This document shows, in pieces, positions 4,491 to 58,172 of a DNA stretch of 64,000 nt. The DNA lies in assembly GCA_009773395.1 (NCBI GenBank), contig WRPI01000004.1, forward strand, positions 248,001 through 312,000, in the 5' to 3' direction. Position numbers and translations under genes: made by a program. Position 1 is the stretch's first letter; every line of letters begins with the position of its first letter. The notes under the pieces are model-generated. The model saw only the letters and a program-made list of their open reading frames with translations. It was not told the DNA's origin and did no database searches. The stretch comes from Hyphomonadaceae bacterium. Its GTDB lineage: Bacteria > Pseudomonadota > Alphaproteobacteria > Caulobacterales > Aquidulcibacteraceae.

Positions 4491-4670
4491 GTTCCGCCCC
4501 AAATATTATTGCCGAAAAATCGTTTCGGCTGCGAAACTTCCACAACTATGGTTAATAATCGGGGAATTGAGTGAACAATAACAGAACAATAAGCGAACGC
4601 AAGAACTATTTTTGGAAAATGCCGATTTATTTTTCAGTTGTCTTGAACTTGGGGCATTTCTTCAATCGCA

Positions 4671-28542: not shown

Positions 28543-28544
28543 TA

Positions 28545-28807
28545 GGGTCAGCTCTCGCTAATTAACGAAGTGTGACCGACGTTTTGGCTAAAATATAATG
28601 AGAAAACAAGGATTTTGTGATGTTGCCATCACAAAACTCCTTTTTTCGCATTAGGTTGACGCCAAAACTCGGCCCAAGGGTGCGGGTTTTTTGCCCACAC
28701 AGAGGCGCGGGAAATCTCGAAATATTCCAATATTACTTCGATTTCCCGCGCCTCTGTGTGGGCAAAATCCCTCGCATCACACTCCGTTAATTAGTGAGAG
28801 CTGACCC
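28545..28807. mobile_element. Palindromic MITE-like element (copy A), 263 bp
   Basis: The terminal inverted repeats begin GGGTCAGCTCTC and match over about 30 bases (28545-28574 against 28807-28778) with few mismatches. Inside are two more hairpins: TTTTGTGATG/CATCACAAAA, and a perfect 27-bp stem (28689-28715 with 28741-28767) around a 25-base, itself near-palindromic loop. It fills the whole gap between alpha-E and transglutaminase. It has no ORF and so is non-autonomous. The GGGTCAG ends are shared with copy B at 49777; the interior differs. TA precedes the left end. Confidence 0.7.
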
Positions 28808-49666: not shown

Positions 49667-49776
49667 AATGAATGCCTCCGCAAATTTGTTACGGCAAATG
49701 ACAACCTAACCAAGGCAATCAAAAGGCGGGTTTGTGGCTAAAAAATGATTAGTTTACGGCAAATATGGTGGCTCTA

Positions 49777-49935
49777 GGGTCAGGACTCAATAATATAGAC
49801 GAAAAGCCGCCAAAATGGCTTCATATTGGGCGCAAATCTTACTCAAAGAGGGGATAAACCCTCTTTTCGCAATCTTCACGCCCACTATTTTGCCATTTTC
49901 ACGGCTTTTTCGCCAATATTAATGGGTCCTGACCC
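49777..49935. mobile_element. Palindromic MITE-like element (copy B), 159 bp, at the purS stop
   Basis: The ends GGGTCAGGAC...GTCCTGACCC are inverted repeats that stay alignable for about 45 bases. TA flanks both ends (49775-49776 and 49936-49937), which fits a TA target duplication. The core has an AAAGAGGG/CCCTCTTT hairpin (49845-49852 with 49859-49866). About 75 bases of the core are nearly identical to copy C at 58009. The purS TAG stop is formed by the flanking TA plus the first G of the element. No ORF inside. Transposase family (IS630/mariner-like or IS5-like) is not determined. Confidence 0.78.
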
Positions 49936-50177
49936 TAGCCGATTACCGAAACCTCAAATGATTCAATAACCAAATTTGCCAGGAGTTTTTGCGCCATTTC
50001 GCGGCCTTTTGAAACGGCAACTTCTTGGCTAGTCGTGTCAATATCAATTTCAATCGATTTACCAATTCGCACTTCGCCAACTTCGGCAAAACCCAAGCTG
50101 TGCAGGGCTTGGCCAACAGCGCGGCCTTGCGGATCTAAAACTCCGGGTTTCAATTTTACATCAACGCGTATTTTCAT
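49935..50177 (-). CDS. purS: Phosphoribosylformylglycinamidine synthase subunit PurS
   Basis: This 80-residue subunit bridges PurL and PurQ in the fourth step of purine synthesis. It shows KIRVDVKLKPGVLDPQGRAV, ALHSLGFAEVGEVRIGKSIE and MAQKLLANLVIESFEVSV. It lies 6 bases downstream of purC. purQ, usually next, is absent; the frame ends in a TAG built from the end of a palindromic element, and an unrelated VWA gene follows. This suggests that the operon was broken here or that purQ lies elsewhere. Confidence 0.95.
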   Translation of the reverse strand: MKIRVDVKLKPGVLDPQGRAVGQALHSLGFAEVGEVRIGKSIEIDIDTTSQEVAVSKGREMAQKLLANLVIESFEVSVIG

Positions 50178-50183
50178 AAGGCT

Positions 50184-50933
50184 CTAACTTTCAACCAAGG
50201 CAATATTTGGATCTTTGAAAATGCCCAATCTCTTGGCAACTTCGGCATAGGCTTCGGAAAGCCCACCTAAATCTTGGCGAAAACGGTCCTTATCCAATTT
50301 ATTATTGTCGCGCGCGTCCCAAAGTCTGCATGAATCTGGGCTGATTTCATCGGCCAAAACGGTGCGCACCAATTCGCCTTCAAATAATCGTCCAAATTCC
50401 AATTTGAAATCAATAAGGCGAATTCCGACTGCTGCGAACATTCCAGTTAAATAGTCATTGATGCGCAATGCCAAAGCCATAATATCGTCAAGTTCTTGGG
50501 TCGCTGCCCAATTAAATGCGGTAATATGTTCTTCGGCAACAATTGGATCACCAAGCGCGTCATTTTTATAATAAAACTCAACGATGGAACGCGGCAATAT
50601 TTCGCCTTCGGGAATCCCAAGTCTTTTTGAAATGCTACCCGCAGCAACATTGCGAACCACGACTTCAAGCGGGATAATTTCGACTTCACGAATAAGCTGT
50701 TCGCGCATATTCAAGCGGCGGATAAAATGCGTGGGTACACCAATGGCGTTCAATTGCGTCATGATAAATTCGGAAATCCGATTATTAAGAACGCCTTTGC
50801 CTTCAATAATTGCGTGTTTTTGGGCATTGAACGCAGTCGCATCATCTTTGAAATATTGGATAAGCGTGCCAGGCTCTGGGCCTTCATAAAGAATTTTGGC
50901 CTTGCCTTCATAAATTTTCTTACGTCGTGACAT
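50184..50933 (-). CDS. purC: SAICAR synthase (PurC)
   Basis: This 249-residue ligase joins CAIR and aspartate using [62 protein letters not shown] and [14 protein letters not shown] are the standard motifs. ATG at 50933 has GAGG six bases upstream and gives the family start [13 protein letters not shown]. It is followed by purS. Upstream is a 254-base gap to the divergent DUF1476 gene holding no gene I could identify. Confidence 0.97.
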
Positions 50934-51199
50934 TTTATGCCTCAAAACAAGCTATTTGCCCAAATTGGCATAGCTTTGATAAATGCGATTGCCGTTGGTT
51001 ATGATTCCAATTGGACTTTCAATGCTCTAGCACGAAGCTCGAAGGCCAATCAACTTTGCGAACTAGTTAATTCACCGTAAATCGGAGATAGTGGCAGTCA
51101 ATCTTTTCTTTTTTGCACAGACGCGCGCACTCAAACCTTGATTGTGGAGCGATTTACTAATAATGCCGATTTTGACTAAACCAAATATTGGACGAGAAC

Positions 51200-51520
51200 A
51201 TGAATAATTTTGAAGAACGCGAAAAAGGTGAAGAACTTAAACATGTGCTTAGCCAAGAACAAGAATTCAAAATTGCGTCACGTCGCAACAAATTATTAGG
51301 GCTATGGGTCGCAGAATTATTGGGGCTTGCTGGCGACGAGGCTGACAAATATGCTTTGTCCGTTGTAATTGCCGATGTCCAAGAAAAAGGCAGCGAAGAC
51401 GTTTTTCGCAAAGTCTTTGCCGATTTGCAAAACGCAAAGTCCGAAGTGAGTGAGCACATGGTTCGCCGTGAAATGGCGAATTATTTGGACATAGCGCGCG
51501 CAGAATTTGCCAATTCCTAA
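51200..51520 (+). CDS. DUF1476 protein, ATPase inhibitor subunit zeta-like
   Basis: This is a 106-residue helical protein. MNNFEEREKGEELKHVLSQE and the following FKIASRRNKLLGLWVAELLG are the DUF1476 pattern. In Paracoccus the homologue (zeta subunit) inhibits the F1-ATPase. The family is largely confined to alphaproteobacteria, which helps place the organism. ATG at 51200 is preferred to the frame start at 51188. In alphaproteobacteria it is commonly beside purC/purS, as here (divergent). Confidence 0.92.
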   Translation: MNNFEEREKGEELKHVLSQEQEFKIASRRNKLLGLWVAELLGLAGDEADKYALSVVIADVQEKGSEDVFRKVFADLQNAKSEVSEHMVRREMANYLDIARAEFANS

Positions 51521-51527
51521 GATCAAT

Positions 51528-51719
51528 ATGAAACGACTTGCGTTTTTCCTGTTCCTAACAATGACTGCATCTCTTAGTGCTTGTGCCATGGCGCCAGTCG
51601 AAAGTGATCCCGCCGCAGCGCAAGCGCGCTATGCCCGAATGGCCGATGATTGCTATAAACGTGGCGGCACTTGGAATGATAATGTTAAGACTTGCGTGGG
51701 TGCGGATCCGTTGCGGTAA
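51528..51719 (+). CDS. Small lipoprotein
   Basis: This 63-residue protein has a lipoprotein signal MKRLAFFLFLTMTASLSAC (lipobox LSAC), then a short mature part of about 44 residues with two Cys (DDCYKRGGTW and KTCVGADP), which could form a disulfide. ATG at 51528, 7 bases after the DUF1476 stop, is chosen for the signal peptide. Similar tiny entericidin-unrelated lipoproteins occur in alphaproteobacteria; no function is known. Probably in one transcript with DUF1476. Confidence 0.75.
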   Translation: MKRLAFFLFLTMTASLSACAMAPVESDPAAAQARYARMADDCYKRGGTWNDNVKTCVGADPLR

Positions 51720-51896
51720 TAGGTCGTCTATTTGCCAATACTTGCGGCTGATTGCCGCTTTGCTGCAAAATTGCCACAATTGCCTTGTTTTTTCCATCAA
51801 AATACACCAAAATCAACGAAATTCAAACTTATTCAAGCCGCATTTTTGTTGGATTTTGTTGCATGCTCAATGAGGGGCTTAATTTTGGGGAATAAA

Positions 51897-52763
51897 ATGA
51901 AACGATTATTATTAACAACAATTGCAGGTCTTAGCTTAATTTCAACTTCGGCATTTGCGCAGGCCAGCCAAACCAATTCGCATCAAAATGTCGTCTCATC
52001 GCAATTACGTGCAGCCGAGGCCGCTTATCTATCGTTAGGGTTTAGACGAACAACTACAACGGGTTCGCAGTCTTTGAATGATGACGGCAATGCCACTTTT
52101 AATATGCCAGTAATTGCAGGGCAGCGCTACGCGGTTTTGGGCGCTTGCGATAGTGATTGCACGGATCTTGACATCAAAATCTTGGATGCAAGTGGTGCGA
52201 TGGTAACCCAAGACGCGGCTACCGATGATTTGCCAACTGCGTATTTTGAAGCCCGGCAAACTGGCAATTATCGCCTGCAAGTGACAATGTATCAATGCAC
52301 TTCTAACCCTTGTTATTATCAGGCAACGGTTGTTTCATTTGGCACTCCAACACCTACGCCTGCGCCTGCGCCTGCGCCAGTCGCACAAAATAACAATTAT
52401 GATGCGCAAGTGACCAGCCAATTGGATCGCGTGGAAGAAGTAGCAAATGGCATGAACTACCGCCGCTTATTCCGCTCACCAATGATGCATATGGATAAAG
52501 ACGCAGTTGAAAATTATACTGTCGTGTTAACGCAGGGTGTGAATTATAAAATCGCTGGTGTTTGTGACAATGACTGCCCAGATATGGACATCAAATTGAT
52601 TGATCCAAATGGCCGCGAAGTCGCCGCTGACGTGCTAACCGACAGCGTGCCAATTGTTGACTACCTAGCCGCGCGTGGCGGAGCATTTACCGTTCGCGTA
52701 GTTATGTATAATTGCACTTCGAACCCTTGCTCGGCTGGCGTAACAGTAATGGCTGCGCGGTAA
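51897..52763 (+). CDS. Secreted protein with two tandem PPC-like repeats
   Basis: This 288-residue exported protein has a signal peptide MKRLLLTTIAGLSLISTSAF, cleaved after AFA. Two homologous domains follow, about residues 30-140 and 165-285, joined by a Pro-Thr-Ala linker (TPTPAPAPAPV). Each holds CDxDC then (L/M)DIK(I/L), and each ends with Y(Q/N)CTSNPC. These look like pre-peptidase-C-type beta domains with two disulfide-prone Cys pairs. ATG at 51897 has GGGG seven bases upstream. It probably binds a surface or carbohydrate, but this is not certain. A bidirectional terminator follows. Confidence 0.75.
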   Translation: MKRLLLTTIAGLSLISTSAFAQASQTNSHQNVVSSQLRAAEAAYLSLGFRRTTTTGSQSLNDDGNATFNMPVIAGQRYAVLGACDSDCTDLDIKILDASGAMVTQDAATDDLPTAYFEARQTGNYRLQVTMYQCTSNPCYYQATVVSFGTPTPTPAPAPAPVAQNNNYDAQVTSQLDRVEEVANGMNYRRLFRSPMMHMDKDAVENYTVVLTQGVNYKIAGVCDNDCPDMDIKLIDPNGREVAADVLTDSVPIVDYLAARGGAFTVRVVMYNCTSNPCSAGVTVMAAR

Positions 52764-52785
52764 AATTGCCAAACAAAATGACGAA

Positions 52786-52814
52786 AAAGCCGCCTTGTTT
52801 AGGCGGCTTTTTTT
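52786..52814. terminator. Bidirectional intrinsic terminator between convergent genes
   Basis: AAAGCCGCC (52786-52794) pairs with GGCGGCTTT (52802-52810), with a 7-base loop and T tracts on both strands. It ends the two-repeat protein transcript. The last codons of the convergent glycosyltransferase form one stem arm and its TAA stop lies in the loop (52799-52801). Confidence 0.85.
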
Positions 52815-53737
52815 GCTTTTTCGCCGTATAATTTCACCTTAAATGGCCCGCCCCAAAATACTTTTCCGAGGCCGCGTAACATTTTATCATAAGCCCAAGC
52901 CCGCTGTGGATGCCGCAATATCCAAAGCGCTAATGCAATGGGAGCCATGACAAGCGCCTGCACAACTCCTTTGGCCATCGAAGCGACACCCGCAACATAA
53001 TTTGGTGTTGCGGCATCAAAATACTGGGCAGTTGTATTGTGGCCATAGGCAAAGCCGCGCAAAGTTAAATAGCGCCAATTGGCGCGATTGCTTGGCACAT
53101 CTTCATATACCCAAGCATTTTCGGCCCAGCCGAACTTGCCGCCCTTGGACGCAATATAAGCCCAAAGTAAATCATCTTCGCCACCAGTATCATTGGTCAT
53201 GGGGTTGAAGGGCGGTTTGAGTTCTTGGGTTGCTGCAACCGATAATAAGCAATTGCCGCAGCCATAGGGTTTTTCGATTATGCGAGTAGGGCCAGAAACC
53301 AGCCGCGAAAAAAATAGTTTGAAGAAGTCATGCGGTTCTTGGTATCCTTGCTCAAGCCTTGCTTCAATTGGGCCAAACACCACTTCGGCTTCGGTTTCTT
53401 TTTGCGCCGCCACCAGCATTTCAAGCCAATTTTCAAACGCCACTTCATCATCATCAAGGAAGGCAATGAACGTGCCTTTGGCTAATTTGACTGCACTATT
53501 GCGGGCATTAGCGACGCCAGCTTCGGGTTCAATTGCATAGGTAAAGTCAATTTGTTTGGCTTCGGCTTCTGCAGCCAAAATATCGGCACTCAATTTTGCC
53601 GAAGCATTGCGGTCATTGTCCATCAAAATAATTTCAAATTTCGGCGCATTTTTTTGGTTCAAAACTGAACGCACTGAGTTTAAGGCACCTTGAGCGCGAT
53701 GAAAAGTGAGGATTATGACGCTAATTTCAATGGTCAT
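52799..53737 (-). CDS. Family 2 glycosyltransferase
   Basis: This 312-residue GT-A enzyme has ISVIILTFHRAQGALNSVRS as the N-terminal nucleotide-binding strand, EAGVANARNSAV, and the metal-binding FIAFLDDDEVAFENW (DxD-like DDD). TNDTGGEDDLLWAYI is the acceptor-side motif. A hydrophobic C-terminal segment (VQALVMAPIALALWIL) suggests membrane association. Its first 11 bases overlap the end of the next glycosyltransferase gene upstream, so the pair works in one pathway, probably cell-surface glycan; donor sugar unknown. A terminator overlaps its 3' end. Confidence 0.88.
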   Translation of the reverse strand: MTIEISVIILTFHRAQGALNSVRSVLNQKNAPKFEIILMDNDRNASAKLSADILAAEAEAKQIDFTYAIEPEAGVANARNSAVKLAKGTFIAFLDDDEVAFENWLEMLVAAQKETEAEVVFGPIEARLEQGYQEPHDFFKLFFSRLVSGPTRIIEKPYGCGNCLLSVAATQELKPPFNPMTNDTGGEDDLLWAYIASKGGKFGWAENAWVYEDVPSNRANWRYLTLRGFAYGHNTTAQYFDAATPNYVAGVASMAKGVVQALVMAPIALALWILRHPQRAWAYDKMLRGLGKVFWGGPFKVKLYGEKAKKAA

Positions 53738-54680
53738 TTGCTTGGTCCATTGCTTCAGCGGCCCATGATGCGCGCCAGAACTTAATTGCCATGCGGCGAA
53801 TAAATAGTGAGAAAATTTGATTTTTGTCCAAGCTTATCGCTTTTGCCAGCGGTCGGAATATTTGATGAAAGGGCAAGTGGCGAACAAACATCGCAGCTTT
53901 AGTGCCACGAAATCGTTTTGCAATTGGGTGTTTTTGTAATAATAACCGCAAATTGGTGCCCGCTTCTTGGTATTTATTCAAAACCGTCGCAGTTTTATCA
54001 AGGCCGACATGGATTGCAATATTGTCGATATGAACCAGCCCATATCCCGCTTTGACGGAACGCAAAGCCCATTCTGTATCTTCCCAGCCCCAGCCATGAA
54101 AGCCAGAATCAAATGGCTCTTTGTCTAAGACGTCGCGCCTGACCAATAAATTATTCGACGCAACCGCATATGCGCCTTTCAGCTTGCGTTCACTTGCTGG
54201 TCGGCAATCGCCAGCTTGCGACAAACTATGGTGTAAAATGGTGTCAATGTTCACATTCGCAGCGCGAGTTGTAAAACCGCCATAAACCACGGCGGAAGCA
54301 TTTTTTTCAATCAGATCCAAATAACGCCTTAAAAATAGATTGTCTTGGGGCAGCATATCGGCATCAACAAACAACACATAATTGGCGCGGCATTCCAAAA
54401 TTGCGCGATTTCGAGCCGCAGACCGTCCGCGATTTTGCGAAAAGCGAATTTTCTTCACTGACCCTGGCCAATTTTCGATTGCCGCACTTACTGCACTATC
54501 CAAGTCGTCATCGCCGCTACCATCATCGACCAATATTATTTCTACGTCCTTTGCGCCTTCAAGGCGTGAAAAAGCCTCAATCAAAGCGCATGGGTCATCG
54601 CGAAAATAGGGAATTGCAATGCTTAATTTTGGCTTGTCAGTATGCGCCGCATTTTTAACAAGAATGTTCTCTTCGGTCAC
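53727..54680 (-). CDS. Family 2 glycosyltransferase
   Basis: This 317-residue GT-A enzyme has LSIAIPYFRDDPCALIEAFS, VEIILVDDGSGDDDLDSAV, RGRSAARNRAIL, NYVLFVDADMLPQDNLFLRR (DxD) and HGWGWEDTEWALRSV (acceptor/catalytic ED). The C-terminal 90 residues are basic and may sit on the membrane. It overlaps the second glycosyltransferase by 11 bases. Both are likely to build an exopolysaccharide or LPS side branch, though no transport or polymerase gene is nearby. The ATG is taken at the frame start. Confidence 0.88.
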   Translation of the reverse strand: MTEENILVKNAAHTDKPKLSIAIPYFRDDPCALIEAFSRLEGAKDVEIILVDDGSGDDDLDSAVSAAIENWPGSVKKIRFSQNRGRSAARNRAILECRANYVLFVDADMLPQDNLFLRRYLDLIEKNASAVVYGGFTTRAANVNIDTILHHSLSQAGDCRPASERKLKGAYAVASNNLLVRRDVLDKEPFDSGFHGWGWEDTEWALRSVKAGYGLVHIDNIAIHVGLDKTATVLNKYQEAGTNLRLLLQKHPIAKRFRGTKAAMFVRHLPFHQIFRPLAKAISLDKNQIFSLFIRRMAIKFWRASWAAEAMDQANDH

Positions 54681-54784
54681 AAATTGTCTTTCAGCATTTA
54701 TCGAATATTGGCTGAACCCATATACAATGCTTATCTGAACATAATATTGACAGAAGTGCCTGTAATGATCAAACAGGCAAAAAA

Positions 54785-54812
54785 ATACCGCCCTTTTGGG
54801 GCGGCATTTTTT
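54785..54812. terminator. Intrinsic terminator downstream of the 49-residue membrane protein
   Basis: CCGCCC (54788-54793) and GGGCGG (54799-54804) form a stem with a 5-base loop, extended by A-T pairs. On the minus strand it is followed by a T tract (54786-54780) and begins 24 bases after the small gene's stop. T residues flank both strands, so it may also work on the plus strand. Confidence 0.75.
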
Positions 54813-54828
54813 CTGCGATTTGCTTATT

Positions 54829-54978
54829 CTAGTTCACGCCTAAAATTTTCGAAGCCAGCATAAGAACTGGGCCCAAAAATACTGCCACAATTAAAGTCGA
54901 AGCAAGCAAGCTTTGAATCAATTGAACATGGGCGGTGCCATCATCGGCGTTAAAAAATTCTTCAGAATATAGTTTCAT
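54829..54978 (-). CDS. 49-residue single-pass membrane protein
   Basis: This is a short ORF below the usual length cut-off. It reads MKLYSEEFFNADDGTAHVQL then a hydrophobic span of about 25 residues (IQSLLASTLIVAVFLGPVLM) and ends SKILGVN. AAGGA is nine bases upstream of the ATG and a strong terminator lies just downstream, giving a complete transcription unit. The acidic N-terminus and single span suggest an inner-membrane peptide. No family recognised; a similar single-span layout is common among small regulatory membrane proteins. Confidence 0.68.
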   Translation of the reverse strand: MKLYSEEFFNADDGTAHVQLIQSLLASTLIVAVFLGPVLMLASKILGVN

Positions 54979-55262
54979 GGGGAGGATTCCTTTTCGGTTT
55001 GTTGTTATTAAGACATATAGTGCATCTGCGAGAAAATGTCAATGAATAATATGTAAAATGTTCAGTGTTCATTATTCGCAGAGTAGTTATGCAAAACTGC
55101 ATGACAAATCGCGTGAGCTCTGCGCGACATTACTGATAATTTAGTCGCGAATTCGCCAATGCGACGTTTTGCCAAATGGAAAATCATACAGAAAATTCTA
55201 CATTTAAAGAAATATAGTAGCCTTAGCAGTTGCAGTTTGGCTTGTAGTTTGGTTGGGGTATT

Positions 55263-56336
55263 TTGGCAAAAACCGTCGGAAATATTGATGTTCATGAAGT
55301 GCCGGCAATTCTGGTTGAAATCGCGCGCGGTTTCAAATCACATGGCGCGCTTTACGTTTTGGCGATTTTCACCGCGCTTTCGGGGCAAGTCGTTGGGTAT
55401 TTTTACGGACGCGAAAGTGCCAATTCTTATTTTCGCGGTTTCTTCACCGAAAATTTCCTAAATTCCGCAATTGGTGCCTTGGGTCTATTCTGCGCGATAT
55501 TCCTGCTGCATTCGATTTTTACAACGCGCCCGCGCAATCTCTGGGTTCATGTAACCAAGACTTTGCGCGAAAATATTTTTTCGCATTCCAGATTGGCGAA
55601 CGGTTTTCACGGGGTTTTATTAATTGCGCTTACGCTTGGCGGTTATAGTTTTTGGAAGCAACAAGTCGCCAATATCGGCGGCTTTGCTTTTGACAAAGCA
55701 CTGGTCAAGATTGACTTGATGTTGCACGGCGGCGCTCTGCCGCAAGAATTGCTGGATCGGATTATCGCCTTTCCGGTAATGGCCATTTTTATCGACGCTT
55801 TTTACATTTTTTGGTTCCCTATTCAGCTAGTCGTCATTGCGTCAATGTCCTTCCAAAAAATTGCCAGCTTTCATCGCTATCGATATTTGCTGACTTTCGG
55901 GCTGAATTATTTGGTGATTGGCGTCATTGCGGCAAATTTAGTTTCAACTGCAGGGCCAGTATATTTTGAAAGATTGAATCCAGGCTCTGACATCTATGCG
56001 CACCACATGGCGATTTTGGATCAAATAACGCCAAGTTTTCAACTGCACGCGACCCAATGGCAAGACGCACTTTGGGCCGCATATATTAGTTCGCCATCCT
56101 ATTCATATATTTCGGCCTTTCCGAGTATGCATGTCGCCAATGCAATGCTGGTTTTTCTGATTAGCCTAAAATATGGGTTATTGATAAGGATTTCAGGGTT
56201 TTTGTTTCTATTTTTGACATTGGTTGGCAGCATATTTTTGGGTTGGCACTATGCTGCCGATGGTTATGCCGCGATATTGATAGTCTTAGGCGAATGGTGG
56301 CTCGCTGGCAAAATCGCGAACAAACAAGTCCACTGA
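55263..56336 (+). CDS. PAP2/Aur1-like membrane phosphatase or transferase
   Basis: This 357-residue protein has about six to seven membrane segments. The PAP2 motifs are incomplete: SAFPSMHVANAMLVF (conserved His) and FLGWHYAADGYAAI (second His and Asp) match PAP2_3/Aur1-type proteins, which lack the N-terminal KxxxxxxRP motif of classic PAP2. Such proteins act as inositol-phosphoceramide-synthase-like transferases or lipid phosphatases. No ATG is near the start; TTG at 55263 with GGGG upstream is used. Ends next to a convergent TetR gene. Confidence 0.82.
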   Translation: MAKTVGNIDVHEVPAILVEIARGFKSHGALYVLAIFTALSGQVVGYFYGRESANSYFRGFFTENFLNSAIGALGLFCAIFLLHSIFTTRPRNLWVHVTKTLRENIFSHSRLANGFHGVLLIALTLGGYSFWKQQVANIGGFAFDKALVKIDLMLHGGALPQELLDRIIAFPVMAIFIDAFYIFWFPIQLVVIASMSFQKIASFHRYRYLLTFGLNYLVIGVIAANLVSTAGPVYFERLNPGSDIYAHHMAILDQITPSFQLHATQWQDALWAAYISSPSYSYISAFPSMHVANAMLVFLISLKYGLLIRISGFLFLFLTLVGSIFLGWHYAADGYAAILIVLGEWWLAGKIANKQVH

Positions 56337-56921
56337 TTATTTTGCTAACCCATGGATCAAATGCGAAATGATGCCATCAAGTTCTTTTCGTAAATATTCA
56401 AGATTATAGCAATGATGTATTTGCGGATAACGATATTTCATGGTCGCGCATTGTAAGACTTCGGCAGTCCATTCAACGTCTTCAAATTCACGAAATTCAC
56501 CGCTTGCGATGCCGTCGTTTAGAATGGCGACAATCAAACCACGTTCTTTTGCCAACCTCTGATTGGCAAATTCCGGCCTTTGGCTAATTATTGCCTGCGC
56601 CATTTCAAAAACTTTATTGCTTTCGGCAATATGATTATAGGTTTCGGTCAAAACTGTATGCGCCAATTTATACAGGCGTTCAATTGCCGTGCCTTTTGAT
56701 TTAATAACTTCAACCAGAATTTCATGGTCATGGTCGCCATGTTTGGTTGCTATGGCTTCGGCTATATCCAATTTGGAAACAAAAAACCTATATAAATTGC
56801 CAGTGGACATTTTAAGATCCCGCGCGATTTCGGCCATTGCTGTTTTATTATAGCCATAATGCATAAAGCGCTTTGACGCGGCTTCAAGGATTTGCATAGA
56901 TGTTTCTTGCTTTTCGTCCAT
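56337..56921 (-). CDS. TetR-family transcriptional regulator
   Basis: This 194-residue regulator has an HTH at about residues 22-52 (HYGYNKTAMAEIARDLKMST, then GNLYRFFVSKLDIAEAI) and a helical C-terminal ligand-binding domain with an HHC segment. It is divergent from gpsA with an AATGAA-N7-TTCATT repeat between them and adjoins the PAP2-like gene with a 0-base gap (convergent). The probable target is itself and/or the divergent gene, but gpsA is a housekeeping gene, so self-regulation is more likely. Confidence 0.88.
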   Translation of the reverse strand: MDEKQETSMQILEAASKRFMHYGYNKTAMAEIARDLKMSTGNLYRFFVSKLDIAEAIATKHGDHDHEILVEVIKSKGTAIERLYKLAHTVLTETYNHIAESNKVFEMAQAIISQRPEFANQRLAKERGLIVAILNDGIASGEFREFEDVEWTAEVLQCATMKYRYPQIHHCYNLEYLRKELDGIISHLIHGLAK

Positions 56922-56963
56922 TTACGACCCTAACATTACTCTACGTAACGATAGCCGCAAATA

Positions 56964-56982
56964 AATGAACGGTCAATTCATT
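56964..56982. promoter_or_regulatory. Inverted repeat upstream of the TetR gene and gpsA
   Basis: AATGAA (56964-56969), seven bases and TTCATT (56977-56982) form a perfect-arm inverted repeat in the gap between the TetR gene (start 56921) and gpsA (start 57005). It is 43 bases from the regulator ATG. Spacing of about 19 bases in total is usual for TetR-family operators. Assignment inferred. Confidence 0.4.
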
Positions 56983-57004
56983 GTTCAGTGAAGGAAAAAG
57001 GAAC

Positions 57005-58009
57005 ATGCAACTATTGCCTTCTAAAGTTGGAGTATTGGGTGGCGGCGCTTGGGGGACAGCTTTGGCGCAAGTTGCCGCAAGTGCTGGCAATGAAGTATTA
57101 ATCTGGGCATTTGAAGCTGATGTTGTTAATGACATAAACAAAAACAACCAAAATTCGGCATTTTTGCCCAATATCGTGCTTTCGAGCCGGGTTAGGGCGA
57201 CCAATAATTTGGCAGAACTTGGCCAATTGGACTTAGTCATGGCGGTGATACCGGCACAATTTACACGTTCAACCTTGGAAAAATTCGCGCCATTCGCGCG
57301 CGCTGGCTTGCCAATCGCGCTTTGTTCAAAAGGCATCGAACAATCGTCACTTAAATTTATGACTGATGTATTGTCAGAAGTCGTGCCGCAAGCGGTTCCT
57401 GTTGTTATATCAGGGCCAAGTTTTGCCAAAGATGTGGCAATTGGCAAACCGACAGCAGTGACCCTTGCTTGCACCGACCGCGATTTGGGTGAAAAACTAA
57501 ACCAAATGCTAGGAATTGCGACATTTAGACCATATTGGGTGCAAGACTTAATCGGCACCGAAATTGGCGGTGCGGTGAAAAACGTATTGGCAATTGCCTG
57601 CGGCATGGCGGAAGGTCGAAAACTTGGCGAAAGTGCCCGCGCCGCCCTTATTACGCGCGGCTTTGCGGAAATGATGCGGCTTGGTGTTAAATTGGGTGCG
57701 AAGCCTGAGACCCTAATGGGGCTATGCGGTTTGGGGGATTTGGTGTTGACCTGCTCGTCCACCAGTTCGCGCAACTTTTCCTTGGGCCGGGCTTTGGGTG
57801 AGGGGCAGAGTGTCGAACAGGCGCTTTCGGGCAAATTATCGGTCGCTGAAGGCGCAGCAACTGCGCCAGCTTTGGCGGCGCTGGCAAAGCGCGAAGGAAT
57901 TGAAATGCCAATTTGCCAAGTGGTCAATGCAATTTTGCGAGAAAAATTGACAGTTGATGAAGCAATAAATGCACTATTGAACCGCCCATTTCGCGAGGAA
58001 GGAATCTAG
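57005..58009 (+). CDS. gpsA: Glycerol-3-phosphate dehydrogenase [NAD(P)+]
   Basis: This 334-residue enzyme reduces dihydroxyacetone phosphate to sn-glycerol-3-phosphate for phospholipid synthesis. The Rossmann start VGVLGGGAWGTALAQVAA, ISGPSFAKDVAIGKPTAVTL, the catalytic Lys in GGAVKNVLAIACGMAEG and GLGDLVLTCSSTSSRNFS are diagnostic. ATG at 57005 has AAGG upstream. Its stop TAG is formed by TA followed by the first G of a palindromic element that lies between it and yciI, normally its operon partner. Confidence 0.96.
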   Translation: MQLLPSKVGVLGGGAWGTALAQVAASAGNEVLIWAFEADVVNDINKNNQNSAFLPNIVLSSRVRATNNLAELGQLDLVMAVIPAQFTRSTLEKFAPFARAGLPIALCSKGIEQSSLKFMTDVLSEVVPQAVPVVISGPSFAKDVAIGKPTAVTLACTDRDLGEKLNQMLGIATFRPYWVQDLIGTEIGGAVKNVLAIACGMAEGRKLGESARAALITRGFAEMMRLGVKLGAKPETLMGLCGLGDLVLTCSSTSSRNFSLGRALGEGQSVEQALSGKLSVAEGAATAPALAALAKREGIEMPICQVVNAILREKLTVDEAINALLNRPFREEGI

Positions 58010-58167
58010 GTCATGGACTCAATAAAAAGTGCAAAAATCCGCAAAAATGGCTTTATATTGGGAGCGAATCTTACTCAAAGAGGGGATAAACCCTCTTTTC
58101 GCAATCTTCACACCCACTATTTTGCCATTTTTACGGCTTTTCCACCCTTTTTAATGAGTCCATGACC
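58009..58167. mobile_element. Palindromic MITE-like element (copy C), 159 bp, at the gpsA stop
   Basis: The ends GGTCATGGACTC and GAGTCCATGACC are inverted repeats. The core from about 58055 to 58140 is nearly identical to copy B, including the AAAGAGGG/CCCTCTTT hairpin (58077-58084 with 58091-58098). TA precedes the left end (58007-58008); TC follows the right end, so the second copy of the duplication has probably changed. The left end lies in the gpsA stop codon and the right end is five bases before the yciI TTG start. No ORF. Confidence 0.78.
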
Positions 58168-58172
58168 TCGAA

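Follow-up and report, generated by a model that had tools for sequence, protein, structure and literature searches.

The window analysed here is a 64,000-nucleotide stretch of a Hyphomonadaceae bacterium (contig WRPI01000004.1, positions 248,001 to 312,000), and it carries two palindromic elements of 159 bp, copies B and C. These are very probably non-autonomous miniature inverted-repeat transposable elements (MITEs) that belong to the IS427 group of the IS5 family, with a hairpin kept on one strand. They belong to a family of 20 copies in this genome, which is inserted at TA, is missing from congeners at two sites, shares its ends with full-length insertion sequences of other genera and shows a strand asymmetry in its inner hairpin. 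The two copies and their parts are located as follows.

49777..49935, - strand (the better-folding alpha strand): copy B (locus L012), probable MITE of 159 bp with type-2 ends GGGTCAGGAC
49775..49776, no strand: TA target duplicate left of copy B
49936..49937, no strand: TA target duplicate right of copy B
49777..49793, + strand: type-2 terminal inverted repeat at the left end of copy B
49919..49935, - strand: type-2 terminal inverted repeat at the right end of copy B
49842..49870, - strand: apical hairpin of copy B, motif CGAA...TTGAG, beginning at position 69 from the outer TA
58009..58167, - strand: copy C (locus L001), probable MITE of 159 bp with type-1 ends GGTCATGGAC
58007..58008, no strand: TA target duplicate left of copy C, which with the first G of the element forms the TAG stop of the upstream gene
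58168..58169, no strand: target duplicate on the right of copy C, changed from TA to TC
58009..58025, + strand: type-1 terminal inverted repeat at the left end of copy C
58151..58167, - strand: type-1 terminal inverted repeat at the right end of copy C
58074..58102, - strand: apical hairpin of copy C, motif CGAA...TTGAG as in copy B

The positions, the equal lengths, the ends and the AAAGAGGG/CCCTCTTT apex of both copies agree with the original prediction. Its description of the copies as near-identical is accurate for the core but not for the whole elements, which show 85% identity over 157 nt. A 36-base core pattern occurs twice in the window, with 0 occurrences expected from shuffles. Folded as RNA on the window strand together with the flanking TA, copy B reaches -80.4 kcal/mol (z-score -13.0) and copy C -68.9 kcal/mol (z-score -11.3), and in each case none of the 200 shuffles is as good. 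The claim that neither copy has an open reading frame (ORF) holds for ORFs of at least 90 amino acids, none of which spans any of the 20 copies of the genome.

The genome (2,633,741 bases in 17 contigs, 99.86% complete) contains 20 copies according to BLAST, and the covariance model R1 recovers the identical 20; thus, the core is not limited to the two occurrences of the window. The copies are short (157-161 bp), numerous and without a transposase, and their identity ranges from 73 to 98.8% (mean 83.5%). L007 and L008 are located on separate contigs and differ at just 2 positions, which points to recent movement. Two remnants (C8:60328 and C6:264007) retain one end and some core sequence each. 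In L018 and L019 the ORF on the left enters the element by 17 bases (1490-1506) and 21 bases (1500-1520), respectively, and ends within it, apparently gaining a new C-terminus from the element. The family was found in none of 60 relatives (four of them congeneric) with either BLAST or R1. The core pattern gave 0 stretches in other genomes and 0 in viral contigs, collections from which the own records were perhaps excluded, and plasmid records contained neither copy B nor copy C.

TA flanks both sides of 17 of the 20 copies, and one side is altered in the other three (L001, L002 and L019). Y precedes the TA in 17 of the 20 copies, R follows it in 13/17, and both are present (YTAR) in 10/17. At L013 the element is absent in all four congeners, and the convergent stops of the neighboring genes overlap there as TTAA, TTAA, TTAG and CTAA; the element occupies the TA shared by both stops, and its first G remakes both of them as TAG. 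At the locus of copy C, the preceding gene is the following.

56981..58009, + strand: gpsA, NAD-dependent glycerol-3-phosphate dehydrogenase, with its TAG stop completed by copy C

In the four congeners gpsA ends in TAA, and in two of them (G002 and G004) the next gene adjoins it directly. Empty-site strains, therefore, do not keep the sequence, and together with the 20 copies, the TA duplication and the pair L007/L008 this bears out the proposal of a mobile MITE-like family.

Stop codons were counted with mechanical ORFs of at least 90 amino acids. A terminal TAG is the stop of a flanking ORF in 9 of the 20 copies (12 of 40 sides); L003, L005 and L013 provide such stops to both convergent neighbors. 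Of the non-disrupting TA sites in the window, 12% lie in stop codons, a share which 9/20 exceeds (P = 0.0002); of its YTAR sites 26% do, and over these the excess is not clear (P = 0.055); targeting of stop codons as such was rejected on that basis. Since only 10 of the 17 intact sites are full YTAR, the family may have a slight bias toward stop codons, or insertions there may have been selected. In any case, by starting with G at a TA target an element is able to insert in a stop that two overlapping genes share and harm neither.

The ends of the family match, at best in 18 of 19 bases, the ends of insertion sequences of 830-880 bp in other genera. Two of these are given below.

L169 (Aminobacter sp. 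HY435): insertion sequence with ends 830 bp apart and a transposase split between frames
L268 (a Desulfovibrionaceae bacterium): transposase likewise split between frames, between ends at a distance of 837 bp

The end of L169, TAGGGTCAGGACTCATTAA, equals both the left and the right end of copy B in 18/19 bases (TA included). In a Pfam scan which covered this partner element alone, its ORFs hit DUF4096 with E 1e-21 and DDE_Tnp_1 with E 5e-16, and the two-ORF layout is found in L289, L290 and L291 as well. An 844-bp element of genome G044 has the end TAGGTCACGGACTCATTAA, with 18/19 bases as in L007. In G006 and G010 TAGGCTCAGGACTCAT adjoins a transposase, and the G006 end shares 17/19 bases with L014. 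With one L169 ORF as protein query, matches were obtained in 11 of 37 genomes. The ends beside these IS427-type transposase matches include TAGGTCATAGACTCATA, TAGGTCACGGACTCATT, TAGGCTCAGGACTCAT and TAGGTCGTGGACTCATA, and in four of nine such loci the second end lies 835-880 bp from the first. The ends beside transposases vary at the same places as those of the 20 copies. Hence the suggestion that the matched arms of copies B and C derive from different inverted-repeat variants fits well, with variants mirroring those on full-length insertion sequences.

Based on these end matches, an IS427-type transposase probably moved the family. Ends of about 19 bp would be recognised in trans, now or formerly, by an IS427-type DDE transposase, which would insert the element at TA (mostly Y-TA, often YTAR) and leave a 2-bp TA duplication. 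The initial G would rebuild TAG in a stop codon that is hit, and a shared convergent stop could be entered with neither gene broken. The matched end variants GGTCATG, GGTCACA, GGGTCAG or GGCTCAG, followed by GACTC, may correspond to the specificities of different IS427-like lineages, and the inner hairpin would be maintained by selection acting on one strand.

The IS630/Tc1-mariner group likewise targets TA, and a MITE of that group would agree with the TA duplication and the YTAR-like target. It is extremely improbable here, as the ends match IS427-type elements and DDE_3 (PF13358) was not found in the whole genome; an IS630 partner was rejected on the latter ground. The original prediction that the window has no transposase stands for DDE_3 and for the IS427-type protein, both searched through the whole genome, other transposase families lying outside that search. 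A different possibility is that of an intergenic repeat serving the host, either as a terminator or as a CcrM-site repeat similar to the Caulobacter CIR (CcrM-associated intergenic repeats), and not of a mobile parasite. The strong hairpin, the lack of copies within long ORFs, the many copies adjoining gene ends and the presence of GANTC in 15 of the 20 copies are in its favor. It is nevertheless very unlikely given the empty sites in congeners. The terminator scan gave a single site in the region of B, in the left arm and not the apex, against 1.2 in shuffles, and 0 sites in that of C against 1.0; the two regions are no richer in sites than shuffles and the terminator idea was abandoned. The CcrM/CIR idea was dropped because five of the 20 copies are without GANTC.

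Among the 20 copies, 17 of 57 stem pairs are changed on both sides, and the covariation score of the family is 0.177; shuffles give 0.064 and slid controls no more than 0.036. The earlier observation that the outer arms vary between copies and match within each one is valid across the family through these two-sided changes, but not for every copy, since several have mismatched ends (e.g., L002, L003, L010 and L014). When stem pairs are taken from the copy B fold, the mismatches are balanced in the first 15 stem columns (8 A.C vs. 10 G.T cells). Beyond column 15, the window strand has 38 A.C mismatches in 13 columns against one G.T in one column, and A.C mismatches on this strand are G.U pairs on the opposite, alpha strand. 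The alpha strand folds better in all 20 copies, by 20.5 kcal/mol on average and by 2.7 with G.U forbidden. In 50 half-hairpins of the wider set described below, the favored strand folds better in 46 (mean 7.6 kcal/mol); it exceeds the other strand in G.U pairs in 30 of them and falls short of it in 12. The bias persists with DNA parameters (20/20 own copies, 44/50 half-hairpins), so that RNA and single-stranded DNA are not distinguishable.

This asymmetry suggests that the inner hairpin is selected as a single strand, with G.A-rich internal loops and G.U pairs favored on that strand, and judging from the fold predictions the favored strand may act as folded RNA or single-stranded DNA. Covariation and the asymmetry of mismatches make the palindrome look constrained, as one of the two earlier readings of the matched arms had it. 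The paired arm changes could also arise solely from hairpin-templated copying during replication, with no selection on structure. Such copying is known for long palindromes, and the changes do come block-wise in both arms. We consider this unlikely: templated copying predicts no strand asymmetry, the 38:1 excess is confined to the columns beyond the balanced ends, and the inner asymmetric loops are nearly fixed. Host transcription was rejected as a source of the bias; one-way neighbors read the alpha strand at three copies and the other strand at eight, while six copies have convergent and three divergent neighbors (ORF map, own reading).

Related ends occur in many other genomes. A scan of the genome collection for the type-2 end TAGGGTCAGGACTNATTAA found at least 120 stretches, with about 7.5 expected by chance according to our estimate. 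Among the matches listed, these loci span 67 organisms (68 titles, one doubled entry merged) and comprise 82 loci of Alphaproteobacteria, 22 of Desulfovibrionia, five of Nitrospinia, six of Pseudomonadota without class, two of Fidelibacterota, one of Bdellovibrionia and two unplaced. A partner end is found at 100-320 bp in 52 of them, and many others are located at contig ends. Of the 52 paired elements listed, 46 are at least 255 bp long, and in 37 of these 46 one or both halves carry the motif CG[CA]A...T[CT][GA]AG, which begins at position 66-71 counted from the TA; shuffles of the same 46 elements have a mean of 0.62 and a maximum of 3. Within the own family, 19 of the 20 copies have the motif at 66-71, where it reads on the complement of the window strand. 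Its carriers among the 52 are mostly Alphaproteobacteria (34/42), followed by unclassed Pseudomonadota (3/4), Nitrospinia (1/3), Desulfovibrionia (0/2) and an unplaced element (1/1).

The half-hairpins were compared in two sets, A3 (35 of the 38 listed, three odd ones excluded) and A4 (28 of the 31 listed, with L175, L244 and L286 excluded and none from the source genome or HYPHO1). RNAalifold found no pairs on A3, and model R2, without base pairs, found L151 (E 4e-6) and a second own family (E 0.36) but not copies B and C. A4 was made from trimmed cores with the structure drawn by hand. Its covariation is 0.527, against 0.184 when shuffled and 0.360 when slid by one, the latter value being due to the mixture of two spacing classes. 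Model R3, built on A4, finds the second own family (E 1.4e-4) and four of the five elements of the congener HYPHO1, G001 (E 1e-5 to 4e-4). Copies B and C belong with the wider set by their ends, target and motif position, and not by a significant R3 score.

In a Rfam scan of 28 loci no element reaches a gathering score; some microRNA models give E down to 8e-4, far under their cut-offs (34 of 200 bits), as is typical of long hairpins. At L230 (4887-5176, - strand), in an alphaproteobacterial metagenome-assembled genome, the 5' ureB small RNA RF02514 matches with E 1e-28, perhaps merely as conserved ureB coding sequence. A Phyllobacterium element is present in four plasmid records. One viral contig, IMGVR_UViG_3300032435_000083, carries a type-2 end (L288, 8042-8060).

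A broader proposal, which we put forward tentatively and regard as possible but rather doubtful, is that a gene-less, almost wholly alphaproteobacterial set of elements joins IS427-type ends to a hairpin module working as one folded strand. Several results weigh against it or against the reading of copies B and C. The IS427-type transposase protein gave 0 matches in the five genomes of the genus (G000-G004, the source genome included), so the partner is read from other genera, and the MITE core is absent from the full-length insertion sequences seen, so B and C are at most possible deletion products of one. The motif pattern was written after viewing the same elements, and shuffles lose the palindrome. 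On copy B, R3 finds 49833-49876 on the correct strand with 9.6 bits, which is not significant, recovering B and C at E 4 only; the best control locus has E 0.045, and the second-best R3 match of the window (4591-4644, + strand, 19.8 bits, E 0.0032) coincides with no visible element. The strict paired pattern occurs in one of 385 genomes drawn from the class, so that exact paired forms are uncommon. Copying of one arm could likewise yield covariation. With G.U forbidden the favored strand still wins in 48 of the 50 half-hairpins (mean 2.7 kcal/mol), which means that purine-rich loops account for part of the bias, and A4 shows no clear G.T excess (22 G.T vs. 18 A.C mismatches). Finally, the 50 half-hairpins come from 26 genomes, include two halves from HYPHO1 and contain near-identical copies, and the 20 own copies are of common ancestry and do not make 20 independent tests.

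Within the genus, the type-2 end gave 13 matches in the source genome (G000) and 12 in HYPHO1, and the type-1 end 30 and 8, respectively. The other three genomes have 0-3 matches per end type and controls 0-2, so both end types exceed the control counts only in the former two. The elements of HYPHO1 differ in their cores and measure 38, 161 and 264-267 bp; single ends are present as well. Two of them (C5:656222-656259 and C5:317166-317203; L125 and L133) are 38-bp palindromes consisting of two ends alone, and several single 19-bp ends have no partner; these look like leftovers of excision or deletion. A relative of the HYPHO1 elements is also located in the window.

28545..28807, no strand: element A, 263-bp two-hairpin relative with ends GGGTCAGCTCTC / GAGAGCTGACCC
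28709..28747, - strand: hairpin module of element A, top R3 match in the window (24.0 bits, E 1.8e-4)

Its left TA is intact (28543-28544) and its right side is now AA. The second own palindromic family, of about 160 bp with ends TAGAGCAAGAAAGG, has three full-length matches, C11:92362-92523 (L042, 10363-10524), C15:602168 and C4:19678, and two partial ones, and is seen in locus L076 too; the ends were read in the copies other than that of C4. A lone type-1 end (L154, C8:99169 of the source genome) lies just upstream of a gene whose start resembles gyrB by eye.

The usual view of MITEs is that of passive leftovers whose middles are free to vary. In this family it is the middle that is conserved, and its covariation and strand bias go beyond what double-stranded DNA alone explains. 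The recurrence of a similar hairpin in elements of many Alphaproteobacteria raises the question whether a MITE moved by a DDE transposase uses a folded strand. If so, a MITE of the classical DDE-transposase kind would rely on a single strand that folds, for instance for recruitment of the transposase or for the timing of its action. A literature search, mostly without subscription papers and at the level of titles and beginnings of abstracts, met no description of these elements. New here are the related ends elsewhere, the short paired elements, and the often covarying hairpin at 66-71, nearly always in Alphaproteobacteria. The probable transposase family, the placement at stop codons, the wider set and the strand asymmetry were beyond the reach of the original prediction.

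Among known systems, the Caulobacter CIR reportedly have an inverted-repeat organisation, a length of over 100 bp and about 20 copies. They are strictly intergenic, according to the part of the source consulted (PMC10969869). In contrast to CIR, which were compared by description only, this family does not conserve GANTC (missing from 5/20). ERIC and Correia elements insert at TA. In the same partly consulted source they are small, palindromic, mostly intergenic MITEs (PMC10969869), in which they resemble copies B and C when compared by description only; their hosts are Enterobacteriaceae and Neisseria, unlike here, and the ends of B and C point to the partner group. QMITE2 of Coxiella is placed mainly in the 3' untranslated region of genes (PMC10969869, as far as consulted), and this 3' placement is likened to that of the present family by description only, in another host. 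The Paracoccus IS427-group elements are 832-865 bp long, and every row but one of the portion consulted gives a duplication of 2 bp (PMC3281130), the member ISPha1 having a 4-bp duplication and one ORF. Copies B and C differ from this group in being without a transposase and in having a structured core which is not found in the full-length elements seen. They share the 2-bp target duplication with its members IS1248 and ISPpa6 of Paracoccus (PMC3281130, in the same portion), and full-length IS427-type elements of other genera share the end sequences of B and C.

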